Positions 4,895-64,000 of a DNA stretch of 64,000 nucleotides are shown here, piece after piece. The position numbers were made by a program, and so were the translations under genes. Each line of letters starts with the position of its first letter. Position 1 is the stretch's first letter. Source of the stretch: Flavobacteriales bacterium (GTDB taxonomy: Bacteria; Bacteroidota; Bacteroidia; Flavobacteriales_D; Crocinitomicaceae); assembly GCA_009926125.1 (NCBI GenBank), contig RFPM01000003.1:1-64000 (forward strand), in the 5' to 3' direction. Below the pieces are notes generated by a model. The model was not told the origin of the DNA and did not search any database. It was given only the letters and a program-made list of their open reading frames with translations.

Positions 4895-6850
4895 ATGAAA
4901 ATTGCCCTATTTGGAAATCCTAATACCGGAAAAAGCTCTGTTTTTAATTTATTAACGGGTTTAAGGCAACAAATAGGTAACTTTGCGGGTGTTACCGTAG
5001 AAAAAAGAGAGGGCTTTCTTACTCTTGGAGATAAAAAATATTCAATTATCGATTTTCCAGGGGCCTATAGTTTGTATCCTCGTTCAAAAGATGAGAAAAT
5101 TGTTTACGATCTACTCAAAAACAAAAATCAAGAATTATATCCTGACGCAGCGCTATTTATTGTTGATGCTGCTAATTTAGAACGCAATCTTTTATTTTTT
5201 ACACAATTATACGATTTAAATATCCCCCTCATTTTAGTCTTAAATATGTGGGACCTTACTGCTAAAAGAGGCATTGAAATTAATATTAAAAAGTTAGAAG
5301 AGGCATTCCCAGGAGTTCAAATTGTTACTTCTAATGCACGACTTAGAATGGGAAAAGAAAGAATTATTCAAGCTATTCAAACTTTAAATCTCACTGCTAG
5401 GAAATCATTTTTTTTAGAAGATTATCAAGTTGCAGAAATTAATGACCAAGAAAAACAAATAACCGAAACAAATTTGCGCTACGAAAAAATTAAAAAATTA
5501 ATCGAAGTAGTAGAGAAAGTAAAAGAAACAAAAACAGATACCTTTTCAAGAAAAATTGATAGAATTATCGTGCATCCAATATGGGGCTACGCAATTTTTA
5601 TATGCATATTACTAACGATTTTTCAATTTATATTTTCTTTTGCAAGTATTCCAATGGAATTAATTGATGGTATTTTTACTGATTTTGCCGCTTATACCTC
5701 ACAAATTCTTCCGGCAGGTGTTTTTAATAATTTAATCTGTCATGGAATAATTCCTGGAATTGGAGGTATTGTTGTGTTTATTCCACAAATTGCGCTTCTC
5801 TTTTTTTTCATTGCTATTCTCGAAGAAACAGGCTATTTAGCAAGAGTTGTTTTTATAATGGATCGCCTAATGAGACCTTTCGGATTAAATGGCAAAAGTG
5901 TTGTGCCACTAATGTCAAGTGTTGCATGCGCGATTCCCGCTGTTATGGCAACAAGAACTATTTCAAATTGGAAAGAACGAATGATTACGATATTTGTAGC
6001 TCCTTTTATGAGCTGCAGTGCAAGAATTCCAGTGTATACGCTCTTAATTTCTTTAGTAATACCTAAAATCTATTATTTTGGTTTTATCAACTTGCAAGGA
6101 ATTGTCCTTTTTTCACTCTATAGCTTGGGTTTAATTGCAGTATTAGCAGTTTCGTTTATCATGAAATTTATTGTCAAAAGTGAAGAAAAAGGCTTTCTTT
6201 TGCTTGAGCTACCAAGTTATAAAAATCCGAGATGGCCAAATATCGGAATTAGTATACTTGAAAAAATCAAACTATTTATTTTCGATGCTGGAAAAGTTAT
6301 ACTGGCTATCTCCATTATTCTTTGGGCTTTGGCATCCTACGGACCAAATAATTCAATGGATGAAGCACTTGAAAAAACTAAAAAACAAAAACGGTTCACA
6401 TCGTTGAGAAAAGTAGATAAAGATCGTGAACTTGCCTCATCAAAATTGGAAGCTTCATACATCGGAAGAATGGGGAAATTTATAGAGCCTGCAATAGAGC
6501 CGCTAGGCTACGATTGGAAAATTGGAATTTCCTTAATTACTTCTTTCGCAGCAAGAGAAGTTTTTGTGGGTTCCCTAGCAACGATCTATGCAGTACAAGA
6601 CGATGGAGTTACCAAAACAAGGTTAATTCAGCGACTAAAAAGAGATAAAAATGCAAAAGGAAAAAAAACCTATACCCTTGCTTCTGGAGTATCACTAATG
6701 ATTTTCTATGTTTTTGCAATGCAATGTATGTCGACAGTAGCAGTAGTTAAACGAGAAACAAATAGCTGGAAATGGCCTTTAATTCAACTAATAGTTATGG
6801 GAGTAATGGCATATTTCAGTGCTTTTTTAGCTTTTCAACTTTTAAAATAA
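4895..6850 (+). CDS. feoB: ferrous iron transport protein B
   Basis: 651 aa; GNPNTGKSSVFN G1, DFPGAYSL, NMWD, gate motifs and C-terminal TM domain. Confidence 0.95.
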   Translation: MKIALFGNPNTGKSSVFNLLTGLRQQIGNFAGVTVEKREGFLTLGDKKYSIIDFPGAYSLYPRSKDEKIVYDLLKNKNQELYPDAALFIVDAANLERNLLFFTQLYDLNIPLILVLNMWDLTAKRGIEINIKKLEEAFPGVQIVTSNARLRMGKERIIQAIQTLNLTARKSFFLEDYQVAEINDQEKQITETNLRYEKIKKLIEVVEKVKETKTDTFSRKIDRIIVHPIWGYAIFICILLTIFQFIFSFASIPMELIDGIFTDFAAYTSQILPAGVFNNLICHGIIPGIGGIVVFIPQIALLFFFIAILEETGYLARVVFIMDRLMRPFGLNGKSVVPLMSSVACAIPAVMATRTISNWKERMITIFVAPFMSCSARIPVYTLLISLVIPKIYYFGFINLQGIVLFSLYSLGLIAVLAVSFIMKFIVKSEEKGFLLLELPSYKNPRWPNIGISILEKIKLFIFDAGKVILAISIILWALASYGPNNSMDEALEKTKKQKRFTSLRKVDKDRELASSKLEASYIGRMGKFIEPAIEPLGYDWKIGISLITSFAAREVFVGSLATIYAVQDDGVTKTRLIQRLKRDKNAKGKKTYTLASGVSLMIFYVFAMQCMSTVAVVKRETNSWKWPLIQLIVMGVMAYFSAFLAFQLLK

Positions 6851-6931
6851 TTATAAAAATTTTAGCGCTTTTTTAATTTTATTTCTTTTAAAAAATTAAA
6901 TCCTAAATAAAAAAGGTAAATTTATTCTCAA

Positions 6932-42574: not shown

Positions 42575-44920
42575 ATGGCAAGGTATTTTATTTTATTTAT
42601 TTTAATTTTATTAAACTCCACAGTTTTTTTTTCGCAGACAAAAGGCATTGTTTTGGATGCTTCAAATGGTGATCCAATTATTGGTGCTCGTATTGTCTTA
42701 TCATCGGGACAAAAATCTATTACTAGTAATTCTGGTGAGTTTATACTCAGTAATGTCAAATATCCAAATTCACTTGTTGTTTCTATGATGGGCTTTATCT
42801 CAGAAACTGTTAAACTATCAAAGGATACACTTTTAATGATTAACTTAAAAACACAAGTGCAAGAAATTAGCGACGTTGTTGTTACTGCAAGCAGAAGAAA
42901 CCAAAATATTGAAGATGTACCAATTTCAATGGAAATCATTAAGCCAGAATTAATCAATAACAAAGGTTTTTCAAATTTAGAACAAGCAGTTGATCAAAGT
43001 CCTGGTGTTTACGCCATGGATGGACAAGTTAGTATTCGAGGAGGAGGAGGCTTTGCATACGGCGCCGGAAGTCGCGTTGCTCTACTTTGGAATGGTGTTC
43101 CGATGATGTCTCCGGATATAGGTGATGCAAAATGGAATGCTATTCCAATGGAACAGACTTCGCAGATAGAAATTTTAAAGGGTGCATCTTCCGTTTTATA
43201 TGGTAGTGGCGCTTTAAATGGAATTATTGCTTTAACAGAGAAAGAACCAAGTCCAAAAGGAAATTTTTCTGCTAAAGTTCAATCAGGGGTTTATGGAAAT
43301 CCTAGAAGAAAATCAATGCAGTGGTGGGATAAAAACCCAACTTTTCATCTAGCGGATGTTTATTTTGGTAAATCTTATAAATATTTAGGATACACAGTAG
43401 GTGCAAATGCTTATTTAGATTCTGGTTTTCGGCAAGGAGAAAACGAAAAAAGATTTCGTTTAAATGGTTCTTTTTACTTCAAACCCAAAAGCAACTCGAA
43501 ACTAAAGGCAGGTTTAAGTTACAATGCACAATACCAAGATATGGGAGTTTTTATTCTTTGGAAGAATGATTCTTTGGGTTACCAAGCTCAGGATAATACA
43601 CTCTCACGACAAAAAGCAATTCGTATTAATGTTGATCCCTACATTAAATTTTATGACAAATTCCAAAATCAACATCAACTAAAAACAAGGTATTACCTCG
43701 TTACAAGTGGGAATGAATCAAAAGTTGGTGATGCTTCCATTGCCGATTTATTTTATGCCGATTATCAATTTCAACGGAAATTTGGGGCTTCTATGAATTT
43801 ATCAGCAGGTATTACACATAATTCTGGGCAAGTAAAAAGTTGGGTATTTGGGGATCATATTTCTAGTAATTCTGCTCTTTATGGTCAAGTAGAATCTAAA
43901 TTTAAACAATTGGATATTACAGCAGGTATGAGAATAGAGCATTATAAATTAGATGAGATGAAGGCTGATTCTCGTTTTAAACTCAATGATTCTTTGTCGA
44001 TTCCTGTTTATCCTATTTTTAGAATGGGTTTGCATTACAAGCTAACTCCTGCGACACATCTTAGGGCTTCATTTGGACAAGGCGTACGCTTTCCTTCTAT
44101 TGCTGAACGCTTTGTTTCAACTTCTGTTGGTGGCTTGACAATTTTTAAAAATCCAAATTTAAAACCCGAAAAGGGTTGGTCTTCCGAACTGGGATTCAAA
44201 CAACTTGTTAAACTTGGTAGTTCTTGGAAAGGATTTTTTGATGTCGCAGCATTTATAAACGAATATAGCAATATGACTGAATTTACTTTTGGTATTTTTA
44301 AACCTGATACAATGGGAAATTTACAATTTACAGATCCAAATGCACTAAACTATTTATTTAATTGGGTCGGATTCCAAGCTCAAAATGCTGAAAAGGCTCG
44401 TATTACAGGTATAGAATTTTCATTTAATAGTCAGGGAAAAATTGGAGAGGTTGAATTAACTTCATTATTAGGTTACACTTATATGAATCCAATTAGTTTA
44501 AACAATGATCCAGCATATAGAGCAAAATTTTCTGATGCAAGTTCAAATATGCTAAAATATCGTTTCAATCATTTAGCCAAGGCAGATATTCAAGCTACTT
44601 TCAGGAAATTTAGTTTGGGTATATCTTTTAGATACAATAGTTTCATGAAAAATATTGACAAAATATTTGAAAATTCTGTAGAAGCGGTGCTTTCCGGAGG
44701 AGAAAATGGGACAATATTTATTTTACCTGGCTTAAAAGAATACCGAAAAAACAACAACAGTGGAGCACTTGTTTTTGATACTCGATTTATATACCATATT
44801 ACAAAAGAAATGAAGCTTAATTTAATTGTAAATAATCTTTTTAATGCTGAATATGTTTCCCGCCCTGCGGATTTGCAAGCACCTAGAAATTTTTTGCTTC
44901 AATTGCAATACGCTTTCTAA
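42575..44920 (+). CDS. TonB-dependent receptor with N-terminal carboxypeptidase-regulatory-like domain (paralog 1)
   Basis: DVVVTASRRNQNIEDVPISMEII plug, beta-barrel, LNLIVNNLFNAEY end. Confidence 0.93.
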   Translation: MARYFILFILILLNSTVFFSQTKGIVLDASNGDPIIGARIVLSSGQKSITSNSGEFILSNVKYPNSLVVSMMGFISETVKLSKDTLLMINLKTQVQEISDVVVTASRRNQNIEDVPISMEIIKPELINNKGFSNLEQAVDQSPGVYAMDGQVSIRGGGGFAYGAGSRVALLWNGVPMMSPDIGDAKWNAIPMEQTSQIEILKGASSVLYGSGALNGIIALTEKEPSPKGNFSAKVQSGVYGNPRRKSMQWWDKNPTFHLADVYFGKSYKYLGYTVGANAYLDSGFRQGENEKRFRLNGSFYFKPKSNSKLKAGLSYNAQYQDMGVFILWKNDSLGYQAQDNTLSRQKAIRINVDPYIKFYDKFQNQHQLKTRYYLVTSGNESKVGDASIADLFYADYQFQRKFGASMNLSAGITHNSGQVKSWVFGDHISSNSALYGQVESKFKQLDITAGMRIEHYKLDEMKADSRFKLNDSLSIPVYPIFRMGLHYKLTPATHLRASFGQGVRFPSIAERFVSTSVGGLTIFKNPNLKPEKGWSSELGFKQLVKLGSSWKGFFDVAAFINEYSNMTEFTFGIFKPDTMGNLQFTDPNALNYLFNWVGFQAQNAEKARITGIEFSFNSQGKIGEVELTSLLGYTYMNPISLNNDPAYRAKFSDASSNMLKYRFNHLAKADIQATFRKFSLGISFRYNSFMKNIDKIFENSVEAVLSGGENGTIFILPGLKEYRKNNNSGALVFDTRFIYHITKEMKLNLIVNNLFNAEYVSRPADLQAPRNFLLQLQYAF

Positions 44921-44994
44921 GTAAAGAAGAAATCATAGAACATATTGTTGTAAATTCACAAAATACTTTTTAATATTGATATCGAAAATTTTAG

Positions 44995-47379
44995 ATGAAA
45001 ATACGAATTCTAACACTTTTATTATTCTTTTGTCCAATTGGCCTATTTTCTCAAATTTCGGGCCTTGTTATTGATAAAGCTACAGATAGTCCAATTGTTG
45101 GTGCTAAAGTTATCGCTTCAGATGGATCTAAAGTTATTTCAAATGGCAATGGAGAATTTAAGTTAAATTGTGCCGTATTTCCTGTAAAAATTAGTGTGTC
45201 GATGTTGCAATATCAAGAAGTAGAGCTTGAAGTGGCAAATGCTGGAACTATTAAAATAGAACTTTCAGAATCCATAAAAGATTTTGGAACAATTGTAGTT
45301 TCTGCTGGAAGGAGAAAACAAACCATTGAAGAAGTTCCAGTTTCAATGGAAATTATCCGACCGCAATTAATCGATAATAAAGGTATTACAGATTTAGAAC
45401 AAGCGGTGGACCAAACTCCCGGTGTTTTTACAATGGATGGGCAAGTTAGTATTCGCGGTGGCTCTGGATTTGCTTACGGAACTGGAAGTCGTGTCTTACT
45501 TTTGTGGAATGGAATGCCACTTCTTTCTGGTTATGCTGGAGATACGCAATGGAATGCTATACCAATGGAACAAACAGCTCAAATTGAAGTAATGAAAGGT
45601 GCTGCATCTGTGCTTTATGGAAGTGGCGCATTAAATGGCGTGATTTCATTAATAGAAAAAGAACCGGGAATTATACCAGAGACAAAAGTTAAAGTTGCTT
45701 ATGGGTTCTTCGATAATCCAAGACGAACCTCTCTTAAATGGTGGTCGAAAACACCAATGATGCAACAAATTGAGGCGTATCATGGAAAAATGTTTAAAAA
45801 AATGGGGTACACGCTTTCTACAACTTTATTTCACAACAACGGATACAAACAAGGTGAAACAGAATACAGAGGTCGAGTAAGTGGAAGCTTATTTTTTAAA
45901 CCACGAAAAATACATGGCCTAAAAGCAGGTTTAGGATACAATTATCAATATCAAAAAACCGGAAATTTCTTAATCTGGGAAAGTGATTCTTTAGGATATA
46001 CTCCAAGTGGTGGAGCTGATACTAGTAATTCAGAATCGACACTAACCTACAATATTGGTCACCGATTTTTTATTGATCCATATCTTAAATACATTGACAA
46101 GTACAACAATCGTCATAATCTTAAAGCACGAATCTATTCTGCTACAAATAATAATATTAATAATCCTCAGCAAGGAAGTGGTGCAATAATCTATTTTAGT
46201 GAATACCAATTTCAAAAACAATTTGGAAATAGAATTTCAGTAACAACCGGTATTTCAAATATTTACAATGTAGTGGTCTCAAAATTATTTGGAGATCACA
46301 CCTCAAATAACTTAGCCGCATACGGGCAATATGAGCATAAAATTGGGAAATTAGATATCACAGCAGGAGTTCGCTTAGAATATTTTCAAATGGACGGCAA
46401 ATCTGGTGACACGGATTTTTATTTCGGAAATGACACAAATGATTTATCTAAATCCCCCCTCTATCCAGTTTTTAGAACAGGCTTACATTACGAACTTGCA
46501 AAATACACGCATCTGAGAGCTTCATTAGGACAAGGCATTCGTTATCCATCTGTTGCAGAAAGATACACAGCAACTTCTGTAGGTGCTTTAAATATTTTTC
46601 CGAATCCTACATTGAGACCAGAAATAGGTTGGGCTGCTGAACTTGGAATCAAACAAGGTGTAAAAATTGGTTCGTGGAAAGGAATGATTGATGTTGCAGC
46701 TTTTGTTAATGAATATAGTAATATGATGGAGTTTGCATTCGGAATTTACAATCCTGATTCAATTAATTTATCACTTGAATCAAATAGTCCTGGATACATT
46801 AAAAAATGGATTGGCTTTAGAGCAGTAAATGCAGAGGCAGCTAGAATTACTGGCATTGATTTTTCCTTCAATAGTTCAGGAAGTATTGGAAAAGTAGAAA
46901 TTATTTCATTAATTGGATATACGTATATGAACCCTATTAGTTTAAATAATGACTCAAATTATAGAACACAATTTTCCGATAAATATTCAAATATGTTAAA
47001 ATATCGTTTCAAACATTTAGCAAAATTGGATGTAGAAGCAAACTATAAAAAATACAGTGTAGGAGTTTCTTGTCGTTACAATAGCTTTATGGGAAATATC
47101 GATAGAATATTTGAAATTTCTGCAGAAGAAGTAATTTTCGGAGCAGAAATTGCGCAAAACATAGTTGATAAAACATTCATTTTACCTGGTTTATTAGAAT
47201 ATCGTAAAAAATTTAACAAAGGAGTTTTTGTCATTGACTTCCGCCTAGGATACAAATTGAATGATAATTTTAGAATTGGTTTGATTGCCAATAATATATT
47301 TAATGCTGAATATTCAAGTAGACCTGGAGATATTCAGGCACCACGAAATTTTATGGCACAACTTCAAATGAAATTTTAA
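44995..47379 (+). CDS. TonB-dependent receptor with N-terminal carboxypeptidase-regulatory-like domain (paralog 2)
   Basis: Clearly similar along its length to 42575..44920 (e.g. shared DLEQAVDQTPGVFTMDGQVSIRGG, QAPRNF end). Confidence 0.93.
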   Translation: MKIRILTLLLFFCPIGLFSQISGLVIDKATDSPIVGAKVIASDGSKVISNGNGEFKLNCAVFPVKISVSMLQYQEVELEVANAGTIKIELSESIKDFGTIVVSAGRRKQTIEEVPVSMEIIRPQLIDNKGITDLEQAVDQTPGVFTMDGQVSIRGGSGFAYGTGSRVLLLWNGMPLLSGYAGDTQWNAIPMEQTAQIEVMKGAASVLYGSGALNGVISLIEKEPGIIPETKVKVAYGFFDNPRRTSLKWWSKTPMMQQIEAYHGKMFKKMGYTLSTTLFHNNGYKQGETEYRGRVSGSLFFKPRKIHGLKAGLGYNYQYQKTGNFLIWESDSLGYTPSGGADTSNSESTLTYNIGHRFFIDPYLKYIDKYNNRHNLKARIYSATNNNINNPQQGSGAIIYFSEYQFQKQFGNRISVTTGISNIYNVVVSKLFGDHTSNNLAAYGQYEHKIGKLDITAGVRLEYFQMDGKSGDTDFYFGNDTNDLSKSPLYPVFRTGLHYELAKYTHLRASLGQGIRYPSVAERYTATSVGALNIFPNPTLRPEIGWAAELGIKQGVKIGSWKGMIDVAAFVNEYSNMMEFAFGIYNPDSINLSLESNSPGYIKKWIGFRAVNAEAARITGIDFSFNSSGSIGKVEIISLIGYTYMNPISLNNDSNYRTQFSDKYSNMLKYRFKHLAKLDVEANYKKYSVGVSCRYNSFMGNIDRIFEISAEEVIFGAEIAQNIVDKTFILPGLLEYRKKFNKGVFVIDFRLGYKLNDNFRIGLIANNIFNAEYSSRPGDIQAPRNFMAQLQMKF

Positions 47380-60034: not shown

Positions 60035-61207
60035 ATGTCAGACAATCGTTATCAAGCAAGAGGAGTATCAGCAGGAAAAGAGGATGTTCATAATGCTATA
60101 AAAAATGTGGACAAAGGTTTATTTCCTCAAGCTTTTTGTAAAATAGTTCCTGATTATTTAACCGGAGATGACGATTATTGTGTTGTAATGCATGCTGACG
60201 GTGCGGGGACAAAAACATCTTTAGCATACATGTATTGGAAAAAAACTGGAGATATTTCAGTTTGGAAAGGAATTGCTCAAGATGCATTGATAATGAACAT
60301 TGATGATTTATTATGTGTAGGAGCAACTGGCCCCATTCTATTATCTTCAACTATTGGCCGTAATAAAAACCTCATTCCTGGTAGCGTTATTTCTGAAATA
60401 ATAAATGGCACAGAAGAACTCTTGAAAGATTTAAGGTCTCATGGCATTGAAATTTATTCCACTGGTGGAGAAACTGCAGATGTAGGCGATTTAGTAAGAA
60501 CAATCATTGTGGATTCTACTGTAATTGCCAGAATGAAGCGCAGTGATGTTATTTCTAATGATAAAATTCAAGCAGGAGACTGCATTGTTGGTTTGGCTTC
60601 TTATGGTCAAACTAGCTATGAAAACACCTACAACAGTGGAATGGGAAGTAATGGGCTTACAAGTGCTCGACACGATGTGTTCAACTATCAATTAGCAAAA
60701 GAATTTCCCGAAAGCTTTGATCCTAATATACCAAATGATCTTGTTTATAGTGGCGGAAAATTATTGGAAGATGAAGTTGCTAACCTTCCTTTAGATGCAG
60801 GAAAACTTGTTTTATCGCCAACACGAACTTACGCGCCAGTAATTAAAAAGATTTTAGATTCTTATCGCTCGCAAATTCATGGAATGGTTCACTGCTCTGG
60901 AGGAGCTCAAACTAAAGTCTTGCATTTTGTAAATAACCTTCATATCATTAAAGATAATCTTTTTCCAATTCCACCTTTGTTTCTTATGATTCAAGAGGAA
61001 TCAGGGACCTCTTGGGAAGAAATGTATAAAGTTTTTAACATGGGACACAGAATGGAGATTTATGTTCCTTTTGAAATAGCTTCAGATCTTATTGCTATTT
61101 CAGAATCATTTGGAATTGCAGCTCAGGTTATTGGCAAAGTAGATTCTTTCGACGGCAAACAAGTAAGTATTAAAAGTGAAAAGGGAGAATTCAGCTATAA
61201 TTCCTAA
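60035..61207 (+). CDS. purM: AIR synthase / phosphoribosylformylglycinamidine cyclo-ligase
   Basis: HADGAGTKTSLAY, STGGETADVGDLVRT, HCSGGAQTKVL. Confidence 0.88.
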   Translation: MSDNRYQARGVSAGKEDVHNAIKNVDKGLFPQAFCKIVPDYLTGDDDYCVVMHADGAGTKTSLAYMYWKKTGDISVWKGIAQDALIMNIDDLLCVGATGPILLSSTIGRNKNLIPGSVISEIINGTEELLKDLRSHGIEIYSTGGETADVGDLVRTIIVDSTVIARMKRSDVISNDKIQAGDCIVGLASYGQTSYENTYNSGMGSNGLTSARHDVFNYQLAKEFPESFDPNIPNDLVYSGGKLLEDEVANLPLDAGKLVLSPTRTYAPVIKKILDSYRSQIHGMVHCSGGAQTKVLHFVNNLHIIKDNLFPIPPLFLMIQEESGTSWEEMYKVFNMGHRMEIYVPFEIASDLIAISESFGIAAQVIGKVDSFDGKQVSIKSEKGEFSYNS

Positions 61208-61276
61208 TCTTTTTCTAAAAAAACTACTGATAAAAGGAATAAAATTTATATTTTTGCCCCCTGTTCATTGAATATT

Positions 61277-61363
61277 GGAGGGATGGGTGAGTGGCTGAAA
61301 CCACCAGTTTGCTAAACTGACGTACGGGAAACTGTACCGCGGGTTCGAATCCCGCTCCCTCCG
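61277..61363 (+). tRNA. tRNA-Ser (anticodon GCT)
   Basis: GGAGGGA...TCCCTCC acceptor pairing, long variable arm, GGGTTCGAATCCC T-arm, loop TTGCTAA. Confidence 0.93.
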
Positions 61364-61410
61364 CAATAAATATTAAAACGGATTGTTTCGGGATGAGAAC
61401 CAGCGGGTTC
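61348..61410 (+). repeat. 63-bp perfect direct repeat, copy 1 (starts inside tRNA-Ser T-arm)
   Basis: AATCCCGCTCCCTCCGCAATAAATATTAAAACGGATTGTTTCGGGATGAGAACCAGCGGGTTC, identical to 61462-61524. Confidence 0.95.
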
Positions 61411-61461
61411 GAACCGGAGCAAAGCGGAGCTCACTGAAAAGCGACAATAGGAGCTTGAAGT

Positions 61462-61524
61462 AATCCCGCTCCCTCCGCAATAAATATTAAAACGGATTGT
61501 TTCGGGATGAGAACCAGCGGGTTC
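61462..61524 (+). repeat. 63-bp perfect direct repeat, copy 2
   Basis: Identical to 61348-61410, offset 114 bp. Confidence 0.95.
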
Positions 61525-61650
61525 AAATCTAATGAAGAATAGTCTTATTGTTGGCTTGTCTATTGTAAATCGTAATAATCTTATTACTTTTGCACTCACT
61601 TTCTGAAAAACGTTTCAGGAAGATTTAATTAAACAGATGATACATTAGTT

Positions 61651-61725
61651 CGGGGCGTAGCGTAGTCCGGTCATCGCGCCTGGTTTGGGACCAGGAGGTC
61701 GCAGGTTCGAATCCTGCCGCCCCGA
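61651..61725 (+). tRNA. tRNA-Pro (anticodon TGG)
   Basis: CGGGGCG...CGCCCCG acceptor; loop TTTGGGA; T-arm GCAGGTTCGAATCCTGC. Confidence 0.94.
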
Positions 61726-61728
61726 CGA

Positions 61729-61756
61729 GGGGGATGAGCAATCATCCCCCTTTTTT
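61729..61756 (+). terminator. rho-independent terminator after tRNA-Pro
   Basis: GGGGGATGA-GCAA-TCATCCCCC TTTTTT. Confidence 0.9.
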
Positions 61757-61796
61757 AATTAGTTTAATTGAAACTGATAATTAATTTCAATTGATT

Positions 61797-61870
<74 letters not shown>

Positions 61871-61871
61871 C

Positions 61872-61916
61872 AAAAAGTGCCCACTTCATGAAATGAAGCG
61901 GGCTTTTTCGTTTTTT
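61872..61916 (+). terminator. rho-independent terminator after tRNA-Arg
   Basis: AAAAAG-GCCC..CTTCAT-GAA-ATGAAG.GGGC-TTTTT then CGTTTTTT. Confidence 0.85.
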
Positions 61917-61930
61917 AGTGTCGGAAACTT
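61911..61930 (+). repeat. left 20-bp direct repeat flanking hipBA
   Basis: TTTTTTAGTGTCGGAAACTT vs TTTTTTATTGTCGGAAACTT at 63721-63740 (19/20). Confidence 0.8.
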
Positions 61931-62087
61931 ATCTGTGTTTAGATTAGCAGCTATACATATTTTGTTGCCGAGTTAGACAGGATCTAGATAGTTTCCGAAA
62001 TTATCTAACTCAATTTGACCGATTAATGTTAAGGATATTAGCGAATAATATAGGAGTATTTTCAACTTCACCGCAAAAAATAATAAC

Positions 62088-62101
62088 GCTAATATATTAG
62101 C
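62088..62101. promoter_or_regulatory. perfect 14-bp palindrome, candidate HipB operator O1
   Basis: GCTAATATATTAGC. Confidence 0.6.
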
Positions 62102-62128
62102 TATTTTTATTAATAATTAGTAAATTTG

Positions 62129-62142
62129 GCTAATATATTAAC
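62129..62142. promoter_or_regulatory. near-identical palindrome, candidate HipB operator O2
   Basis: GCTAATATATTAAC, 1 mismatch to O1, 41 bp downstream, just after TAAATTTG -7 element (62121-62128). Confidence 0.6.
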
Positions 62143-62146
62143 TAAT

Positions 62147-62419
62147 ATGAATCCTTTTTCCATTGATAAAAATCCAACAGACATACTGAAGGAACTTGCT
62201 CAACGAACAAAAACTCTTAGAAAAGAACATAAAATGTCTCAGAGCGAACTTGCTCAACGTGCCAATGTTTCGCTTGGGAGTTACAAACGATTTGAAACGA
62301 GTGGTCATATTTCATTGGATTCATTATTGAAAATTGCTTTTATCCTTGGGAAATTGAATGATTTTGAAACAGTTTTTCAGTCCAACAAAAACAAGGATCT
62401 TGAAAAATTATTTAAGTAG
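62147..62419 (+). CDS. XRE-family HTH antitoxin, HipB-like
   Basis: LRKEHKMSQSELAQRANVSLGSYKRFETSGHISLDSLLKIAFILG; 6 nt upstream of hipA-like gene; ATG at 62147 preferred over TTG 62126. Confidence 0.88.
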   Translation: MNPFSIDKNPTDILKELAQRTKTLRKEHKMSQSELAQRANVSLGSYKRFETSGHISLDSLLKIAFILGKLNDFETVFQSNKNKDLEKLFK

Positions 62420-62425
62420 ATTAGA

Positions 62426-63646
62426 ATGAGCCAAGAAAGAATTAAAGTATCATTGGATTTTGGATCGTCAATCGTTGAGGTGGGGATGCTCATTGAGCAA
62501 AATCAGCAAATTTATTTTCGATTCGAACCTTCCTTTTTGGAAAGCGATTTGGATATTTCTCCCTTTAAATTAAAGAAAACAACTGAAATACTTCTTTCGC
62601 CAAGAGCACCTTTTGATGGCCTATTTGGCGTATTCAACGATTCAATTCCCGATGGCTGGGGAAGATTACTCTTGGATCGAAAACTAATTAAAAGTGGGGA
62701 AAACCCAAAAGAAATAAGTATTCTGAATCGTCTTTCTATGCTGGGTAAAAGTGCTCAAGGCGCATTGATTTACGAACCCGTTACCGATGAAGGGAAATTT
62801 GAAAATGAACTCATCAATTTAGACTTGATTGCTCAAGAATCAGAAGAATTATTAAAAACTGGTACTGCCACGTTTTTGGATCAATTGTACCATCTTGGTG
62901 GAAATTCAGTTGGTGCTCGACCGAAAATATTGGTGAATTACAATCAAAAATTGAATCAATTCTCCACTGTTTCTAAAGAAGAATTTGAACCTTGGATTAT
63001 AAAGTTTCCCGCACTAAACGATTTAAAAGATATCGCACAAATTGAGTTTGCCTATTACAAGATGGCAGGGGCTTGTGGAATTGAAATGAGCGAATCTAAC
63101 TTGTTTTATTCTGAAAGCGGAAAGGTATTCTTTGGAACGAAGCGTTTTGATCGCTTTGCCAATAAACGATCGCATCTGCATTCTGCATGTGGCTTATTAC
63201 ATGATGATTTCCGATATAGCACCATGGATTATGGCCATGTAATGGATGCTGCAAACCGATTGGAAAATAATTTAAACGCTTGCGAAAAAGTATTTCGTTT
63301 GGCTGTTTTCAATGTCTATGCTTCCAATATGGATGACCATAGTAAAAACATTGCTTTTTTGATGAATGAAAAAGGAAAATGGGGTTTAGCACCCGCGTTC
63401 GATTTAACCTTTTCGCCCTCTCCGGGAGGATATCATAGTCTTTCAGTTGCAAATACTTATCAAGAAATTGGAAAAAAAGATCTATTGAAATTAGCCGCTT
63501 ACTTTGGCATTAATAAAGGCAATGAAATCATTGATCAAGTAAAAGAAACGCTATCTAAATGGAACATATTCTCTTCTGAAACGCAAATCAATAAAAAAGA
63601 GCATGAACTCATTGAAAAAACGTTGTTTAATAACTTGAAAAAGTAA
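62426..63646 (+). CDS. HipA-like serine/threonine kinase toxin
   Basis: LGGNSVGARPKI loop, SNMDDHSKNIAFL catalytic segment, LAPAFDLT metal-binding segment; N-terminal DGLFGVFNDSIPDGWGRLLLDR. Confidence 0.93.
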   Translation: MSQERIKVSLDFGSSIVEVGMLIEQNQQIYFRFEPSFLESDLDISPFKLKKTTEILLSPRAPFDGLFGVFNDSIPDGWGRLLLDRKLIKSGENPKEISILNRLSMLGKSAQGALIYEPVTDEGKFENELINLDLIAQESEELLKTGTATFLDQLYHLGGNSVGARPKILVNYNQKLNQFSTVSKEEFEPWIIKFPALNDLKDIAQIEFAYYKMAGACGIEMSESNLFYSESGKVFFGTKRFDRFANKRSHLHSACGLLHDDFRYSTMDYGHVMDAANRLENNLNACEKVFRLAVFNVYASNMDDHSKNIAFLMNEKGKWGLAPAFDLTFSPSPGGYHSLSVANTYQEIGKKDLLKLAAYFGINKGNEIIDQVKETLSKWNIFSSETQINKKEHELIEKTLFNNLKK

Positions 63647-63720
63647 GAAGGTAGCAGAAAGACAGCGTGAGACCACGCAGTAGCACCGAAGGTAAACAGC
63701 CCTGTCGATAGATGTTAGGA

Positions 63721-63740
63721 TTTTTTATTGTCGGAAACTT
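63721..63740 (+). repeat. right 20-bp direct repeat flanking hipBA
   Basis: TTTTTTATTGTCGGAAACTT; 19/20 match to 61911-61930. Confidence 0.8.
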
Positions 63741-63744
63741 GGAA

Positions 63745-64000
63745 TCAAACTTTTATGGATAAAGTGTTAATTCCTGAATATTCAACAAACTCTCTAATAA
63801 ATAATTCTAATGGAAGTTCAAATGCATTGGACAACCCTATTATCCAAAATAAGGTTGGGGAGATAAGGCCTCTTTCAACCCTAGAAATATATTGATAGTC
63901 CAAGCCCATTCTATCTCCTAGATTTGATTGACTTAGTTTTAAGTGAATCCTTTTTTCTCTGACAAACTCTCCAAATATTTTATTGAAAGCTGTTTTTTCC
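63745..64000 (-). CDS. XRE-family HTH transcriptional regulator, partial (start beyond right edge)
   Basis: Minus frame open from edge: EKTAFNKIFGEFVREKRIHLKLSQSNLGDRMGLDYQYISRVERGLISPTLFWIIGLSNAFELPLELFIREFVEYSGINTLSIKV*; not in ORF track. Confidence 0.85.
   Translation of the reverse strand, partial: EKTAFNKIFGEFVREKRIHLKLSQSNLGDRMGLDYQYISRVERGLISPTLFWIIGLSNAFELPLELFIREFVEYSGINTLSIKV

Follow-up and report, generated by a model that had tools for sequence, protein, structure and literature searches.

A hipBA toxin-antitoxin pair beside a tRNA-Arg gene of a Flavobacteriales bacterium, exchanged between species at a site that in relatives holds apparent remnants of tRNA-linked GIY-YIG genes

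HipBA modules are type II toxin-antitoxin systems of the HipA kinase family, with the gene for a helix-turn-helix antitoxin, hipB, placed before hipA, whose product joins a Couple_hipA domain to a HipA_C kinase domain. tRNA sites are classic integration targets, and the genomic islands associated with them have a tyrosine integrase and hold variable cargo 3' of the tRNA gene. Behind the tyrT gene of E. coli lie tandem 178-bp repeats that carry the tRNA 3' end, and we know of no GIY-YIG gene or loop palindromes in these repeats. The gene for the GIY-YIG homing endonuclease SegB lies between tRNA-Arg and tRNA-Ile in phage T4 (PMC2988022). Such endonucleases are often tRNA-associated in phages, and inheritance and tandem amplification of the SegB region by homologous recombination have been described (PMC13096335). 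By analogy, phage SegB is the closest described case to the tRNA-linked GIY-YIG genes found here in Bacteroidia; the open-access literature searched yielded no description of such genes together with broken tRNA copies for bacterial chromosomes.

The window, a stretch of 64,000 nucleotides, comes from a genome (G000) assembled to 1.5 Mb in 157 contigs and 81% complete. Its contig is 64,054 bp long and has an XRE gene at its end, so that the right junction of the region described below adjoins the contig edge. The genomes compared with it are apparently for the most part metagenome assemblies, and several loci end at contig edges. The nearest relatives are G088 (99% complete) and G047 (71% complete), with a backbone identity between G000 and G047 of about 96%. 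Repeat matches were sought in 86 genomes of the same genus, and the tRNA cluster was compared over about 50 same-genus loci.

Two intact genes on the forward strand, 6 nt apart, make up the pair. The first, hipB (62150-62419), encodes an HTH_3/XRE antitoxin of 89 aa counted from its ATG, with a profile score above cut-off and a possible alternative TTG start at 62126. The second, hipA (62426-63646), encodes a toxin of 406 aa with Couple_hipA (PF13657) and HipA_C kinase (PF07804) domains, both above cut-off; the C-terminal half can be aligned with solved HipT structures across the conserved catalytic-loop region. Upstream, on the same strand, two AATATATT palindromes 41 bp apart (62088-62142) were recognised from sequence and alignment as likely HipB operators. 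Their spacing is identical in G064, G076, G006 and G096, and HipB may regulate its own synthesis through them. Judged by its sequence, the pair is a canonical two-gene HipBA toxin-antitoxin cassette of about 1.6 kb with a predicted kinase toxin. It agrees with known HipBA modules in gene order, antitoxin type and toxin domains; the genes are ordinary, whereas their address and their exchange between species form the notable part. Past the cassette, an ORF supported by profile search (63745-63999, minus strand, with its 5' part beyond the window) encodes an accessory XRE-type regulator with a homologue elsewhere in G096. HipBA relatives with 44-52% identity occur in many Bacteroidota. Those on plasmids are all below 60% identity, with a best value of 45%, and a search of viral contigs found no relative, which led us to reject a phage-borne origin.

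The left side of the locus is constant. ARAGORN identified tRNA-Ser (GCT) at 61277-61364, tRNA-Pro (TGG) at 61651-61726 and tRNA-Arg (TCT) at 61797-61871, all on the forward strand, and alignment placed the tRNA-Arg terminator, GCCCACTTCAT...ATGAAGCGGGC followed by a T-run, at 61879-61908 (plus strand). This Ser-Pro-Arg cluster is kept across the same-genus loci and is near-identical genus-wide, while the genes 3' of tRNA-Arg vary from genome to genome; the locus comparison and the alignment thus mark tRNA-Arg as the left anchor of a variable site. In the alignment, G000 resembles G047 through tRNA-Arg and the first bases of the terminator and resembles the hipBA-bearing lineages thereafter, with the switch at about 61878-61892, inside the terminator. 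G047 is only partly usable as a clean empty site, because a feoB-like gene follows its tRNA-Arg (L055/L093). That gene is about 84% identical to window positions 5432-6860, 55 kb upstream, well under the backbone identity, and may represent a second feoB or a rearrangement. Other arrangements were seen around the same tRNA gene. In five loci (L099, L101, L104, L112, L131), up to ten small secreted-looking paralogues of about 130 aa stand in tandem 3' of tRNA-Arg and adjoin large predicted secreted proteins. In three others (L130, L129, L123), the first 15-18 nt of tRNA-Arg are tandemly copied upstream of the intact gene at a spacing of about 70 bp, irregular in L129.

Close relatives of the window's hipBA occupy this tRNA-Arg address in G006, G064, G076 and G091 as well as in G000, remnants remain there in G096, where hipA has been deleted, and in G058, where only hipB is left, and G019 has a 52% identical hipBA at the same site. 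A match is absent from the two nearest relatives, G047 (71% complete) and G088 (99% complete), and, in the genus search, from G097. The presence/absence variation that the initial annotation had proposed to look for at this locus does therefore exist within the genus. At DNA level, hipBA is 90-94% identical between species that are saturated at silent sites in the genes flanking it. Between G000 and G064, G076 or G091, four-fold-site identity is 0.25-0.32 (saturated) in the gene to the left and 0.74-0.87 in hipA, values that rule out vertical inheritance of hipBA. The comparison of G091 with G064 gives 0.34 for the left gene, 0.70 for hipA and 0.39 for rsgA on the right, and since both sides are saturated there, the cassette must have moved alone in that case. 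Elsewhere the tracts are longer. A hipBA-rsgA-aroE block is about 93-96% alike among G064, G076, G006 and G058, while the gene left of the tRNAs, at 0.40 over four-fold sites between G064 and G076, is more diverged than the block to their right; some tracts are therefore long and end at the tRNAs. A close copy in G014 lies away from the tRNA-Arg cluster, so other routes of movement must exist. A general preference of hipBA for tRNA genes was considered and ruled out, since among 30 more distant hipA loci (L024-L053) just one lies less than 300 nt from a tRNA. By this sequence comparison, hipBA in this genus is an accessory, horizontally exchanged cassette at a tRNA-Arg address. The silent-site evidence shows a toxin-antitoxin pair changing hands between species at one constant tRNA address, and no integrase was seen on the contig. 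Once acquired, the pair would be expected to persist by ordinary toxin-antitoxin addiction.

The initial annotation had read the pair as a candidate minimal cassette, bounded precisely by 20-bp direct repeats and mobile, if at all, in trans or by homologous recombination between those repeats. Direct repeats are indeed present on the forward strand at 61911-61930 and 63721-63740, around the intact pair and 3' of the tRNA cluster, and match at 19 of 20 positions; the inverted core AGTTTCCGA at 61990-61998 (TCGGAAACT, minus strand) and the XRE regulator beyond the right copy, running from 63745 past 63999, are likewise as described. The repeats do flank hipB-hipA, but not precisely: about 219 nt separate the end of the left copy from the hipB ATG, and the right copy starts 74 nt past the hipA stop. 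Five direct 20-mer pairs with at least 19 matches, 100-3000 bp apart, occur in the 64 kb, whereas 300 dinucleotide shuffles of 61200-64000 produced no comparable pair. Chance is ruled out by the shuffles for the pair as a whole, and part of the likeness is accounted for by T-tracts and a dispersed palindrome. Both repeats open with T-tracts after hairpins, of the tRNA-Arg terminator on the left and of the palindrome on the right; because the first bases of both copies are T-tracts, the informative shared part is approximately TGTCGGAAACTT. The search for further sites in the G000 genome, with 3 mismatches allowed, returned two weak matches and no third true copy. Exact matches to TTTTAGTGTCGNNAACTTG in the 86 genus genomes are confined to the tRNA-Arg flank, where G064 has three in tandem and G076, G006, G096 and G097 have one each. 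With two true copies in G000 and exact genus copies in that flank only, generic intergenic sequence can be dismissed as their source.

A hipBA cassette that ends at these repeats, moving in trans or by recombination between them, would account for repeats that are genuine, unlikely by chance and flank only hipBA, and for the mobility of the pair. We nevertheless consider this quite improbable. The left copy is the conserved downstream flank of tRNA-Arg, 40-59 nt 3' of the tRNA, as sequence and genus comparison agree. G097 has it without hipBA, as ordinary tRNA flank; in G096 a whole tRNA-derived unit separates it from hipB. The right copy was seen only in G000 in searches of the genome and the genus, and not at the right flank of other hipBA loci in relatives. 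It opens with ten bases that form the end of a palindromic, REP-like element (63694-63730) that overlaps the first half of the repeat and was recognised by search of relatives, two relatives of the element lying upstream of hipBA in G091. The same search showed 63669-63697 to be a piece of a dispersed repeat with several copies each in G057 and other genomes. Independent hipBA copies lack the same terminal repeats at both ends: the direct repeats of G000 are 20 bp long and those of G091 58 and 49 bp, those of G064 and G076 are tRNA-Arg 3' units in degenerate form, and the inverted core is missing from the shorter leaders of G006, G064 and G076. The window's cassette has a right junction that occurs only at this one contig end. 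The best explanation is that the 20-bp repeats are by-products of a repeat-rich site, not attachment sites; repeats beside a cassette need not mark its ends. Homologous recombination rather than an integrase is still favoured, as the initial annotation had guessed, with the two 20-bp repeats no longer serving as cassette ends.

Its statement that no integrase or transposase is visible holds for the two families checked. A profile search for PF00589 found its sole G000 match on another contig, the window contig stopping soon after the XRE gene, and a search for the Y1 transposase of REP/RAYT systems (PF01797) gave no match in the G000 genome (81% complete). These results bear on a further explanation, that of a decayed integrase-type island at tRNA-Arg, which has since lost its tyrosine recombinase and in which former att sites persist as degenerate tRNA 3' ends. 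As at tRNA-associated islands, the cargo 3' of the tRNA is variable, and tRNA 3' ends are duplicated beyond hipBA, in degenerate form, in G064, G076 and G006, though not in the window. These copies, however, are degenerate, tandem and split by hairpins, and accompany GIY-YIG ORFs; no integrase was found on the window contig or recognised in the loci read, and the window's 20-bp repeats contain no tRNA sequence. We regard a decayed island as very improbable.

What the relatives do have is GIY-YIG sequence. Six of them have a short GIY-YIG endonuclease ORF whose start, 36-48 nt 3' of tRNA-Arg, coincides with the left-repeat position in the window. The tail of such an ORF (for example EATRREKWYET) follows hipA, or the hipA remnant, in G064, G006, G076 and G096. 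The tail matches are short, at 11-13 aa, and in G096 the tail includes an exact DNA stretch of at least 25 nt in common with the intact gene of G058 and G089. Directly after the tail in G064, G006 and G076 comes a degenerate tRNA-Arg 3' end. Judged by this order of sequences, hipBA in these genomes appears to sit inside the wreckage of a tRNA-GIY element. Beside hipBA in the window, neither an intact GIY-YIG gene nor a recognisable tail of one is present; compared with a SegB-like element, it keeps the site without the gene. Within its tRNA cluster, the tRNA-Ser 3' end and spacer are present in two 66-bp copies with a 114-bp period (61348-61527, plus strand), in which the downstream T-arm is split by an insert and which have no ORF. 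The sister genome G047 has three copies of this repeat.

We consider it probable, if well short of certain, that hipBA lies among the ruins of a GIY-YIG element linked to tRNA genes, and that its exchange proceeds by homologous recombination for which the tRNA cluster acts as anchor. What is observed is that hipBA was transferred, that the left anchor stays fixed while the content and the flanking repeats of the site change, and that relatives have remains of GIY-YIG genes and tRNAs next to hipBA. Homology on the left would come from the near-invariant tRNA cluster and terminator, and on the right from downstream genes or from tRNA-derived or palindromic repeats. A tRNA-linked GIY-YIG element homing in the manner of SegB would, by past insertion and cutting, have left partial tRNA repeats and recombinogenic ends, and its cutting was possibly the source of the breaks that start exchange. 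Plain homologous replacement, in which the conserved tRNA cluster is the anchor and the GIY-YIG genes and partial tRNAs are non-causal passengers, would make do with the near-identical cluster, requires no recombinase, and fits the long co-transferred tracts of the G064 group. It leaves unexplained, however, the hairpin-interrupted partial tRNA copies, the GIY tail directly 3' of hipA and the siting of GIY-YIG genes at tRNAs throughout the class, and we hold it to be rather unlikely. In the reading we prefer, the setting of GIY-YIG genes and broken tRNAs may be why the tRNA-Arg site keeps rearranging.

The class-wide siting was assessed with the 29 best-matching GIY-YIG loci outside the genus, drawn from 295 Bacteroidia genomes and not picked for tRNA proximity. 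In 24 of the 29, no more than 260 nt separate the GIY-YIG match from a tRNA on the same strand, upstream or downstream; at a generous background of 1%, the binomial probability is about 1e-43. The more distant hipA loci served as the control, with their single nearby tRNA in 30. In many of the GIY-YIG loci a tRNA is partly copied, and the copy has a GC-rich palindrome or hairpin in its D-, anticodon- or T-loop region. The clearest intact element, at a tRNA-Phe in G015, consists of the tRNA 3' end, a terminator, the GIY-YIG ORF, a T-arm with TCCGCCGCGGCGGA splitting its loop, and the tRNA 3' end again, and the unit is tandem with a 329-bp period. The partial copies of the window's tRNA-Ser, which have no ORF, resemble it. 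Tandem arrays were also found in G206 (ten copies at 457-bp spacing) and G263. These partial tRNA copies and arrays may reflect site-specific cleavage that led to copying of the GIY-YIG element and its flanks.

The free-standing SegB of phages T4 and T6 is alike in having a GIY-YIG gene beside tRNA genes, as seen on the same strand both in the relatives and across the class. The Bacteroidia ORFs, known here from sequence alone, differ in being chromosomal and tiny (about 80-110 aa) and in having partial tRNA copies split by palindromes. The tyrT repeats are similar as tandem units with a tRNA 3' end behind a tRNA gene. As a possibility to which we give slightly less than even credence, the small GIY-YIG genes would be minimal mobile elements of one family, able to insert in tRNA genes, rebuild an intact tRNA, leave a partial copy with a GC-rich palindrome in its D-, anticodon- or T-loop and amplify in tandem, making tRNA loci exchange sites for cargo like hipBA; the window locus would then be a burnt-out example. 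If true, this could explain how tRNA loci become variable without integrases.

Small GIY-YIG ORFs abutting tRNAs were noted in L184 (1385-2200), in L217-L245, in L178, L182, L188 and L190, and in L191, L193, L198, L200, L204 and L205. Elsewhere in the window, 43016-46986 contains long-range direct repeats, about 2.4 kb apart, that look like an internal duplication in coding sequence.
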